Assembly (NCBI RefSeq): GCF_000820045.1
Contig: NZ_CDBJ01000042.1
Location: forward strand, 1 to 64,000
Source of the DNA: Aeromonas rivuli
GTDB taxonomy: Bacteria > Pseudomonadota > Gammaproteobacteria > Enterobacterales > Aeromonadaceae
Length of the DNA stretch: 64,000 bases
Direction: 5' to 3'
Shown: piece by piece, positions 3,817-6,309 of the stretch
Layout: each line of letters opens with the position of its first letter
Numbering within the stretch: position 1 is the first letter of the stretch
Made by a program: the position numbers and the translations under genes
Notes under the pieces: model-generated
Told to the model about the DNA's origin: nothing
Database searches by the model: none
Seen by the model: the letters and a program-made list of their open reading frames with translations, nothing else

Positions 3817-4695
3817 TCAGCCGTGCTTGCGGCCCGAGAGGCGGCACCACTCCTCTTTCACTGCGGTCTGGTCCATGTCGAACCACTGGCCGTAGATGGT
3901 CTCCAGCTCCGGCGCCTGGCTCTCCAGCACGCCGGACAGTGCCATCAGGCTGCCGGGCTTGCCCAGACCCTTGATGAGCGGCGCCAGTTCGCGCAGCGGG
4001 CCAGCCAGGATATTGGCGACCACCACGTCGGCACTGATGCCGTCCGGCTGATCCGCAGGCAGGTAGAGCTCTATCTGACCCGCGACGCCATTACGTTCGG
4101 CGTTGTCATGGCTGGCCTGAATGGCCTGCGGGTCTATGTCGATGCCGATGACCCGGGCGGCGCCGAGCTTGAGGGCGGCGATGCCGAGGATGCCGGAGCC
4201 ACAACCGAAGTCGACCACGGTTTTACCAGTCAGATCCAGGCCATCGAGCCACTGCAGGCAGAGCGCCGTGGTGGGGTGGGTGCCGGTACCGAATGCCAGA
4301 CCGGGATCCAGCATGACGTTGACCGCATCGGGGTTGGGCACATCGCGCCAGCTCGGGCAGATCCAGAGCCGCTCGCCAAACTGCATGGGGTGGAAGTGAT
4401 CCATCCACTCGCGCACCCAGTCCTTGTCTTCCAGCTGCTCGACCTTGTAACCGACATCTTCCCCGAAGATCTGCTGGAAGAAGGCGATGGTGGGCGCCGG
4501 GTCGGTTTCGGCATCGAACAGCCCCATCACCTCGGTCTCGCCCCAGAGCGGCGTTTCACCAGGCAGCGGCTCGTAGACGGGCACATCCTGGGCATCCATA
4601 AAGGTCACCGCCTGGGCTCCACGCCCCAGCAGCATGTTGCTCACCTTGTCCGCGGTTTTAGCGGTGGCGTTGATTCGAATTTGTATCCAGGGCAT
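3817..4695 (-). CDS. prmA: Ribosomal protein L11 methyltransferase
   Basis: PrmA is a cytoplasmic SAM-dependent enzyme that trimethylates ribosomal protein L11. The protein is 292 residues, as expected. The N-terminal substrate-recognition domain ([19 protein letters not shown]) is followed by a class I methyltransferase fold with motif [21 protein letters not shown] and the [15 protein letters not shown] segment of motif IV. In E. coli prmA follows panF. Here it is separated from panF by an alcohol dehydrogenase, a LysR gene, a PTS gene and a 600-bp intergenic region, so the ancestral accBC-yhdT-panF-prmA cluster has been interrupted. Confidence 0.95.
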
Positions 4696-4833
4696 GGGGT
4701 CGACTCTTCATGAATGTGAAACCGCGGGATTCTACCATTCCGGGCCTGCGCTGTCGTGGTTTGCCCGCGGCCGAAAGGGGCCGACTCCGTCCGTCAGCCT
4801 CTCATGAGAGAAAAACAAGGACCATCAGCAAGG

Positions 4834-4850
4834 TTGGCACGGTTAATGTA
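4834..4850 (+). promoter_or_regulatory. Sigma-54-type promoter P1
   Basis: TTGGCACG is the -24 element and TG at 4847-4848 sits exactly 12 bases after GG, as in RpoN promoters, although the -12 dinucleotide reads GT rather than GC. It shares GTTGGCACGGT with promoter P2 downstream. A perfect palindrome, CTCTCATGAGAG (4799-4810), lies about 25 bases upstream and could bind an activator. Confidence 0.6.
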
Positions 4851-4859
4851 TTAATCCTT

Positions 4860-4921
4860 ACTGCTTTGCTCTAGGAAAGTTCCGTCATCTTTCACGCCAC
4901 CCTCGGGTGGCGATTTTTTTT
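4860..4921 (+). ncRNA. Candidate sigma-54-dependent small RNA 1 (about 60 nt)
   Basis: The transcript start is inferred from P1 and the end from the terminator CGCCACC-CTCG-GGTGGCG (4895-4912) followed by eight T. The terminator is nested in an outer CTTTCAC...GTGAAAG repeat. There is no plus-strand gene between prmA (minus strand) and this terminator. About 35 unstructured bases precede the terminator hairpin. No RNA family was recognised. Confidence 0.5.
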
Positions 4922-4973
4922 GGTGAAAGCCAGCCAGGAGAGAGGCTGCGAGGAGGGCACGGCCGCACTGGCC

Positions 4974-5006
4974 AATAAAAATGACCCAGAGCGGGTCATT
5001 TTTATT
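4974..5006. terminator. 14-bp perfect inverted repeat, bidirectional terminator-like
   Basis: AATAAAAATGACCC (4974-4987) and GGGTCATTTTTATT (4993-5006) pair perfectly around AGAGC, giving a T-rich 3' arm in both directions. It lies 3 bases before the -24 element of P2, so it could insulate the second unit from the first. Confidence 0.6.
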
Positions 5007-5009
5007 GAG

Positions 5010-5026
5010 TTGGCACGGTAGCTGCA
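5010..5026 (+). promoter_or_regulatory. Sigma-54-type promoter P2
   Basis: TTGGCACG-N5-TGCA has GG at 5012-5013 and GC at 5024-5025, with exact -24/-12 spacing. This is a near-consensus RpoN promoter. Confidence 0.75.
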
Positions 5027-5035
5027 ATCAATAAA

Positions 5036-5120
5036 TTATCCTGCAAAGGATGTGTGTGTGATTGTTACCCCCAACGTTCAGGTATTTAGGGTCATCCCGG
5101 TCGGGATGGCCCCTTTTTTT
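5036..5120 (+). ncRNA. Candidate sigma-54-dependent small RNA 2 (about 85 nt)
   Basis: Starting 11-12 bases after the -12 element, the transcript would begin with a small hairpin, ATCCT-GCAA-AGGAT (5038-5051, a GNRA tetraloop). It continues with an unstructured GT-rich and then C-rich linker that includes CCCCCAACGTTC. It ends in a strong terminator with stem 5089-5098/5103-5112 and seven T. The architecture resembles Hfq-dependent regulatory RNAs, but the conserved core of Vibrio Qrr RNAs is absent. No coding potential was noticed. Confidence 0.6.
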
Positions 5121-5295: not shown

Positions 5296-6309
5296 TTAAG
5301 CGAACTCGGCCATGTCGATCACCAGTTTGCCGATCATCCGTCCCGCTTCTACCTCTGCGTGTGCTTGCGCCAGGGTGGCTGGGGTCAATGCAGTCAGGGT
5401 CTGGCCCAGGGTGGTGCGCACTGTCCCCAGGTCGACCAGCTGGCTGACCTCGCTCAACAGCCTGTGCTGTTCAATCATGTCCGGGGTCTGGAACAGGGAG
5501 CGGGTGAACATGAACTCCTGGCTGAAGGTGACGCTCTTTGCCTTGAGCAGGCCGAGATCCCAGGGCTCATTGGATTCGGCAATGGTGCAGATATGGCCGA
5601 ATGGACGTATCAGGCTGGCCATGGCGCTCCAGTGCTGTTCGGTGGCATTGGTGCAGAAGATGGCATCGAGCTGGTTGATGCCAAGGGCCGCAAGATCTCC
5701 CTGCAGGTTGTGATGGCTCACTACCCGGTGAGCCCCCATTGCCAGGCACCAGTCGCGGGTTTCTGGCCGGGAGGCGGTGGCGATCACCTCCATCCCGGTG
5801 AGCTGGCGAGCGAGCTGGATGGCGATGGAACCCACGCCGCCCGCCCCGCCGATGATGAGCAAGTGCCCCTTGCTGTCCCGCTGGAGGCCGATGCGATCGA
5901 ACAGCGCCTCCCAGGCGGTGATGGCGGTAAGCGGCAGGGCGGCGGCTTCGACATCGGACAGGCTGGCGGGGGCCAGGGCGACGATCCGCTCATCGACCAG
6001 TTGCAGTTCGCTGTTGCTGCCGGGGCGACTGATATCCCCCGCGTACCAGACCCGGTCACCCGCCTTGAACAGGGTGACCTCGCTGCCGACAGCGACCACG
6101 TTACCCACCGCATCCCAACCCAGTACCCGTGGGCTGGCCTCCACTTTATCCTTGGGGGCGCGCACCTTGGTATCGACCGGGTTGATGGAGGTGGCGCCGA
6201 TTTTCACCAGCAGATCCCGCGGGCCGGGAGTGGGGGTGGGGAGGCTGGCCTCGATGAAGCAGTGGGGATGATCGCTTGGCAGATAATGGGTGAGGGCGAT
6301 GGCTTTCAT
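5296..6309 (-). CDS. Zinc-binding alcohol dehydrogenase family protein (MDR superfamily)
   Basis: This 337-residue medium-chain dehydrogenase/reductase has a GroES-like N-terminal domain (TSINPVDTKVRAP, VLGWDAVGNVVAVG, FKAGDRVWYAG) and a Rossmann domain with HLLIIGGAGGVGSIAIQLAR for NADPH. It resembles the quinone-oxidoreductase-like subgroup, which usually lacks the catalytic zinc Cys/His set, so the zinc in the family name may not apply. It probably reduces enals, quinones or similar electrophiles. It is divergent from the LysR gene at 6406, which is its likely regulator. It sits between prmA and panF, genes that are neighbours in E. coli. Confidence 0.85.
   Translation of the reverse strand: MKAIALTHYLPSDHPHCFIEASLPTPTPGPRDLLVKIGATSINPVDTKVRAPKDKVEASPRVLGWDAVGNVVAVGSEVTLFKAGDRVWYAGDISRPGSNSELQLVDERIVALAPASLSDVEAAALPLTAITAWEALFDRIGLQRDSKGHLLIIGGAGGVGSIAIQLARQLTGMEVIATASRPETRDWCLAMGAHRVVSHHNLQGDLAALGINQLDAIFCTNATEQHWSAMASLIRPFGHICTIAESNEPWDLGLLKAKSVTFSQEFMFTRSLFQTPDMIEQHRLLSEVSQLVDLGTVRTTLGQTLTALTPATLAQAHAEVEAGRMIGKLVIDMAEFA

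Follow-up and report, generated by a model that had tools for sequence, protein, structure and literature searches.

In Aeromonas rivuli two short units lie in tandem between prmA and adh, which codes for a zinc-type alcohol dehydrogenase, each unit opening with an element of the sigma-54 type and closing with a terminator. To our knowledge, few small RNAs driven by RpoN are known, and each of those known is central to a regulon. In the window, by which we mean the whole analysed stretch of 64,000 nucleotides, a sequence-only reading had seen an unnamed RpoN-dependent pair of small RNAs (sRNAs); judged by the comparison of genomes, in which promoter patterns and RNA bodies are conserved at 35 loci, this proposal is well supported. 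We hold it highly probable that the locus contains two separate sRNA genes in tandem, unrelated in sequence and each served by a sigma-54 promoter and a terminator that it does not share, whose products would act by base pairing with mRNAs. The features of the region are the following:

3817–4695, minus strand: prmA, the divergent neighbour (TIGR00406, 331 bits, cut-off 183)
4834–4849, plus strand: P1, sigma-54-type −24/−12 promoter of RNA1, TTGGCACG-N5-TGT, with a non-consensus GT at −12
4861–4921, plus strand: RNA1, predicted transcript of ~60 nt, short form, its putative start placed 12 nt after the −12 base
4863–4871, plus strand: box A of RNA1, GCTTTGCTC, its nine bases identical throughout 28 loci
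4880–4888, plus strand: box B of RNA1, TTCCGTCAT, candidate pairing region, TTCCGTCA invariant in 28 loci
4895–4921, plus strand: Rho-independent terminator of RNA1, 7-bp stem (4895–4912) and T-run
4973–5007, no strand: inverted repeat with 15-nt arms, outside the conserved core
5010–5026, plus strand: P2, sigma-54-type −24/−12 promoter of RNA2, TTGGCAC-N6-TGCA
5037–5120, plus strand: RNA2, predicted transcript of ~83 nt (covariance model R2, E ≤ 0.001 in 35/35 loci)
5037–5052, plus strand: 5' hairpin of RNA2 (UCCUG...AGGA), from fold prediction
5052–5067, plus strand: GU-rich stretch of RNA2, GTGTGTGTGATTGTTA, candidate pairing region, TGTGTGTGATTGTTA invariant in 28 loci
5089–5120, plus strand: Rho-independent terminator of RNA2, 10-bp stem (5089–5112) and T-run
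5296–6309, minus strand: adh, the convergent neighbour (TIGR02817, 408 bits, cut-off 284)

Conservation of the Pair in Aeromonas

Compared as DNA, the region finds matches in 32 of 37 Aeromonas genomes, most of which consist of two blocks (RNA1, and P2 together with RNA2) with unmatched DNA between them. Covariance models were built for each RNA, as the earlier reading had advised, and they showed the pair to be conserved across the genus: it stands in tandem in 35 of the 37 genomes, beside prmA in 32 and beside gluQRS in three. Model R1 reaches E ≤ 0.001 at 34 of the 35 loci, the remaining one, L132, giving E 0.0016. Thirty loci were read by script, and the pair was extracted from 28 of them using patterns taken from the same alignment; L013 and L016 are left out of this 28-locus set because the search word missed their RNA2, which model R2 finds in both.

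When the models were run with strict filters over 75 Aeromonadaceae genomes, R2 was found in 33 and R1 in 34, all of them Aeromonas, and neither was found in the 38 genomes from the four other genera of the family (0/38). Free scans of the stretches upstream of prmA, available for 10 of these 38 genomes, gave no convincing pair, the best match being one of R1 in L122 (16.6 bits). A match of R1 in L133 (genome G008) is without box B. An exact 19-base word of RNA2 occurs in 22 stretches of an 84,980-species collection, all from Aeromonas, with A. veronii, A. caviae, A. salmonicida and A. dhakensis among the species. The pattern TCCTGN{0,8}AGGAYRTGTGTGT was found in 21 of 394 genomes taken from the whole order, namely the 21 Aeromonas among them, and in none of the 113 other genera of this sampled order, diverged copies being missed by such a pattern.

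In three genomes (G009, G027 and G029) the tandem pair has been relocated, with both promoters, to a place beside gluQRS, RNA1 of G029 scoring only 19.3 bits (E 0.0016). There dksA adjoins prmA, as tested with a model in the G009 stretch and seen by eye in the other two. The arrangement of L130, L131 and L132, if compared to that of L116, L118 and L119, looks as if a segment had been inverted, one end of it lying between prmA and the pair and the other between dksA and gluQRS.

The pair is absent from two of the 37 genomes and is, therefore, dispensable. G022 (locus L117, at ~100–250) lacks a segment that begins shortly upstream of P1 and reaches into adh, and a further jump follows, so that either the RNA pair was lost naturally or the assembly is at fault; in G006 another gene lies beside prmA, and no pair was found. 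Through genome rearrangement the pair has been kept in nearly every Aeromonas species sampled, in a genus that includes pathogens of fish and humans.

The Two Promoters

Two −24/−12 elements had been claimed, the first with GT at −12, and both are present: TTGGCACGGTTAATGTATT at 4834–4852 and TTGGCACGGTAGCTGCA at 5010–5026, with a distance of 12 from GG to G(C/T) and, as also claimed, with GTTGGCACGGT in common. The pattern TTGGCAYN6TGYA has two matches in the 64 kb, both at this locus; the mean in shuffled sequences was 0.20, and two matches were reached in 3 of 100 shuffles. A looser scan of the window allowing one mismatch, to whose consensus P2 has zero mismatches, stayed at chance level (17 matches found vs 12.9 expected), so that it is conservation, and not the motif alone, that carries the case for sigma-54.

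The elements proved to be conserved in the related genomes, the P1 and P2 patterns being found at 35/35 loci and nowhere else in them. In free scans, (T/G)TGGCA(C/T)G-N5-TG(T/C/A) lies 5' of RNA1 in all 35 loci and TTGGCAY-N6-TGCA no more than 30 nt before RNA2 in 33, while P2 of L013 and L016 reads CTGGCAC, with C replacing the first T; elsewhere in the same loci, on both strands, neither pattern occurs in 172,712 positions. This conservation extends to the three genomes with the pair at another place. With the beginning of the RNA2 model, in which no promoter is included, taken as the anchor, the two G bases of P2 are retained in 33 and 35 of the 35 loci and TGCA in 33/35, most bases farther upstream being kept in 11 to 26 of 35, and low conservation flanks the boxes on both sides. 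GG at −24 and GC at −12 with 10 nt between, the arrangement by which a sigma-54 box is recognised, are found in P2 at 35/35 loci.

An alignment of 31 loci had been anchored on the box letters, hence its box conservation of 96–100% is partly built in, and its box figures are superseded by the scans run freely or anchored on the RNA. The stretch from the −12 box to the start is 58% conserved for P2 (31 loci) and 76% for P1, the latter not clearly lower than the boxes. Conservation resumes about 12 bases past the −12 base of P2, which matches the expected start of a sigma-54 transcript, and less clearly for P1; the predicted starts are ~4861 for RNA1 and ~5037 for RNA2. In P1 the spacing and the GG are kept in 35/35 loci, and at −12 there is GT or GA, not GC, in 31 loci, the third base of the box being T in 29/31, A in 2/31 and never C. 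We regard P1 as a natural non-consensus −12 element kept across the genus beside a consensus one.

It might be argued from this GT or GA of P1, and from two sigma-70-like matches (9 of 12) that overlap P2, that another sigma factor reads the units and that the −24/−12 likeness is incidental. However, the second hexamers of those matches fall mostly within the 58%-conserved stretch, whereas the boxes of P2 are kept in 33 to 35 of 35, and we consider this reading very improbable. If the units are instead sigma-54-dependent sRNA genes, the RpoN-RNA polymerase would wait at P1 and P2, and an enhancer-binding activator would switch both promoters on.

Neighbouring Genes and Repeats

Four proteins were sought at the borders of the pair. 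The left neighbour is divergent in 35/35 loci (prmA in 32, gluQRS in three) and the right neighbour convergent in 35/35 (adh in 33, pts in two). The position "upstream of prmA" given by the earlier reading holds in so far as the pair adjoins this gene, but it is incidental, as the units run away from prmA and gluQRS stands at the left in 3/35.

The fact that adh faces the pair in 33/35 loci would suit cis-antisense RNAs that pair with the 3' end of the adh mRNA, which runs towards them. In the window, however, RNA2 ends ~175 nt before the stop codon of adh, the pair is kept in two genomes whose nearest convergent gene found is pts, and past the terminator of RNA2 the aligned stretch shows no conservation, all of which makes a cis-antisense role very improbable. 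Leaders or attenuators of a downstream gene, with the hairpins as conditional terminators, would likewise show a promoter followed by a terminator within 60–85 nt; but the nearest right-hand protein of the four sought is convergent in every locus, so that no known gene is led, which argues that the units are not leaders and leaves this reading hardly credible.

Two repeats had also been described. The palindrome upstream of the first unit is CTCTCATGAGAG, at 4799–4810; the perfect inverted repeat between the units, claimed as one of 14 bp, is present, but its arms measure 15 nt (4973–4987 and 4993–5007). A role for either is unsupported, neither being conserved across the 35 loci: the palindrome is confined to the locus of the window (1/35), and four of the 35 (L001, L002, L003 and L132) carry an inverted repeat of 10 bp or more immediately upstream of RNA2. 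In L002 and L003, which are close relatives, the arms of the repeat show matching changes on both sides. The repeat at 4973–5007 probably serves the adh side as a terminator working in both directions.

At the other end of the left-hand flank, positions 1–2020 of the window hold a repeat-rich autotransporter in a frame beginning near the window edge, with tandem units of 60 and 180 bases over 1–891 and an autotransporter beta-domain at its C-end.

The RNA Units

The Rho-independent terminators claimed on the plus strand for each unit were both recovered, at the stems listed above and each with its T-run; a terminator scan gave three sites in the stretch vs a mean of 1.2 in shuffles. RNA1 and RNA2 are unrelated in sequence and both have U-rich 3' ends. 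Their folds have z-scores of −2.61 (RNA1) and −3.00 (RNA2), and 2 and 1 of 200 shuffles, for the two RNAs, folded as well.

With alignments fitted to models that were built from the same sequences, the covariation score was above 500/500 shuffles and above all slid versions for both RNAs. The further pair types did not stand out (150 and 302 of 500 shuffles), nor did the pairs of RNA1 changed on both sides (96 of 500), and the RNA2 structure slid by −1 gave six pairs changed on both sides vs five in place. In the terminator of RNA1 99.5% of cells are paired, with change on both sides in 2/7 pairs; in that of RNA2 86.6% are paired, with change on both sides in 4/10 pairs, and a one-base shift in one clade leaves several pairs unpaired in 8–10 of the 32 rows. 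The 5' hairpin of RNA2 has 97.9% of cells paired, yet 4/6 of its pairs never vary.

The three relocated copies have an altered box A, keep CCGTCAT of box B and retain only GTGTGTGT of the GU-rich stretch of RNA2. The short RNA1, starting right at the conserved core, is found in the window, L002 and L003, and elsewhere RNA1 is ~28 nt longer at the 5' end (long form). The 5' start of the long form, GGUGACGG, is exactly complementary to CCGUCAUC of box B, with which it is predicted to pair in L007; a rival 5' hairpin in the long-form RNA1 shows compensatory changes, and we infer that the hairpin and the pairing of the 5' part with box B are alternatives.

No convincing ORF had been seen in either unit, and indeed no reading frame is common to the 28 loci; indels of 1, 2, 4 or 5 bases occur within the RNA bodies. 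Each unit has its own terminator and no protein product, as sigma-54 sRNA genes do. It is extremely improbable that a short peptide is encoded by either RNA or by both: a 13-codon frame from GTG in 7/28 RNA1 copies, and AGGA preceding ATG or GTG in RNA2, would speak for it, but the frame is missing from the other 21 RNA1 copies (28 loci, the relocated three left out) and in RNA2 the C-run differs in length between copies (4 to 6), which shifts the frame.

Candidate Targets

As regulatory RNAs, RNA1 and RNA2, whose U-runs resemble those of Hfq-bound RNAs, would base-pair with mRNAs elsewhere, if Hfq binding is assumed. The GU-rich stretch of RNA2 would be its likely pairing region, with mRNAs for uptake and envelope functions blocked at their translation starts in the style of GcvB, and box B would be the candidate pairing region of RNA1.

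In the window's genome AACAATCACACA, a 12-mer complementary to the core of RNA2, does not recur. In the 37 genomes we found 15 sites outside the pair, distributed in 12 genomes, which is only twice the number of the reversed control (7). All 15 were read: ten are placed at a plausible start codon, no more than 45 bases ahead of it or 10 past it, and five elsewhere; those at starts belong to the DsdX D-serine transporter in four genomes (L190, L201, L241 and L247), to LivG in two (L214 and L246), to an outer-membrane beta-barrel protein in two, and to a CD0519/CD1768-type membrane protein and a LamB-type porin in one each. Counted as distinct sites, 5/10 are at starts vs 5/74 control CA-rich 12-mers (Fisher p 0.0016), a comparison devised after the sites had been seen, with a control drawn from 102 kb of the window's genome and crude gene calls. 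Leaving out G009 and G029, whose RNA2 is without the full core, 4/8 distinct sites are at starts (p 0.004), G029 having a AACAATCACACA site though its RNA2 lacks the full core. Duplex energies of RNA2, from −26 to −32.5 kcal/mol, are control-free and were not used as evidence. We treat the possible pairing of RNA2 with the starts of genes for uptake and the envelope as a lead, not a result, and the AACAATCACACA sites could belong to GcvB instead.

For RNA1, ATGACGGAA, the complement of box B, has 26 genome sites, one of which is RNA1 itself, and its reversed control 15. Some of these sites resemble gene starts, which we take to be menB- and recX-like.

Comparison with Known Regulatory RNAs

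The Qrr RNAs of Vibrio are short, sigma-54-driven, present in several copies per genome and copies of one another. The pair is like Qrr (RF00378) in that its RNAs are short, with sigma-54-type promoters, and its genome encodes a LuxO-nearest protein, and unlike Qrr in that RNA1 and RNA2 are not copies of each other and no LuxO site lies within one mismatch in 31 loci. That Qrr is absent, as the sequence-only reading had it, was borne out by the Qrr model, for which none of the 37 Aeromonas genomes exceeded the cut-off (controls without Vibrio), the best match, 26.9 bits vs 50, not being at the pair locus; nor was Qrr listed for the window stretch (E ≤ 5) or for five relatives' loci (E ≤ 1).

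GcvB uses a GU-rich stretch to pair with CA-rich starts of amino-acid and other transport genes. RNA2 is similar in its GU-rich stretch with a complement at transport-gene starts, but the pair has sigma-54-type promoters, and in the fold predicted for RNA2 a part of the GU stretch is paired; no GcvB covariance-model match was listed at the pair locus or at five relatives' loci. CrcZ and CrcY of Pseudomonas are sigma-54-dependent regulatory RNAs with an AAnAAnAA motif, unlike the Aeromonas loci, in only 4/35 of which the motif occurs at least once in the stretch tested.

GlmY/GlmZ, presumably families RF00128 and RF00083, are also a pair of sRNAs, and a GlrR-nearest protein is encoded in the window's genome; by contrast with them, the pair has no GlrR site within one mismatch in 31 loci and no listed match to their models (E ≤ 5 for the window stretch, E ≤ 1 for five relatives' loci). 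In enterobacteria, glmY has been described as sigma-54 dependent (PMC3162934).

Within the same genus, the AvrA sRNA of A. veronii differs from RNA1 and RNA2 in its reported length of 253 nt (PMC6517841), and none of ten published AvrA primer cores was found within 3 mismatches in the window and five Aeromonas loci, including L037 of A. veronii. The same source reports 466 noncoding transcripts in A. veronii (PMC6517841), among which RNA1 and RNA2 may figure. Among the open-licence literature matches listed, no title or opening lines of an abstract describe the pair.

A search of Rfam at the locus and at five relatives' loci gave no family reaching threshold, including ncS54 (RF02871; 21.8 bits, E 0.11, gathering score 43) and Hrs13 (RF02631; 27.1 bits, in L131 only, gathering score 52). 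The pair matches no catalogued RNA family, sigma-54-driven sRNAs being already known as a kind.

A bolder picture, which we put forward only as a rather unlikely one when taken as a whole, is that of a genus-specific, sigma-54-fired module of two RNAs that shuts down nutrient uptake. RNA2 would act like GcvB on CA-rich transporter and porin starts (dsdX, livG and a LamB-like porin) but be wired to RpoN; RNA1, fired beside it from a promoter with a fixed non-consensus −12, would use box B to address mRNAs of a second set; GGUGACGG of the long form would hide CCGUCAUC until opened, the window's clade being without that part; and the activator could be the LuxO-like protein, in a genus where no Qrr was found. 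The pair itself is a small and convenient starting point for mapping a sigma-54 circuit, for whose targets there are first candidates.

Candidate Activators

Of 18 rows for sigma-54 activator domains in the window's genome, 15 score well. The protein nearest LuxO scores 659 bits, below the cut-off of 800, and that nearest GlrR 511 bits, below 763; around these LuxO-like and GlrR-like genes neither Qrr nor GlmY was listed at E ≤ 0.5. Both proteins are kept in G006, which is without the pair (LuxO-like, 85% identity; GlrR-like, 84%), and this is mild evidence against each of them as the activator. Another activator, which we take to be VpsR-like, is absent from G006, but it was rejected as it has no match (E ≤ 1e-70) in 20/35 pair-bearing genomes either.

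The activator-site patterns scanned were those of LuxO, GlrR, TyrR, NorR and NtrC and a CbrB-like one, the LuxO site being TTGCA-N3-TGCAA and the GlrR site TGTC-N10-GACA. In the 31 loci there was no exact canonical site; the LuxO, GlrR, TyrR and CbrB-like patterns had no match within one mismatch, and NorR had five and NtrC 30 matches, none exact. In four of six examples of NtrC matches, one match is, or overlaps, the P2 box.

Upstream of P1, GGTTTGCC (at most one mismatch) is found at 41–44 nt in 23/28 loci and at 53–87 nt in the other five, with one mismatch in two of the 28. Among the relocated copies it is absent from L130 and L131 and present in one of three, L132, at 43 nt. The window's genome also encodes two activators very similar to each other, G000:C42:126947 and G000:C3:29823, which are presumably NorR-like.
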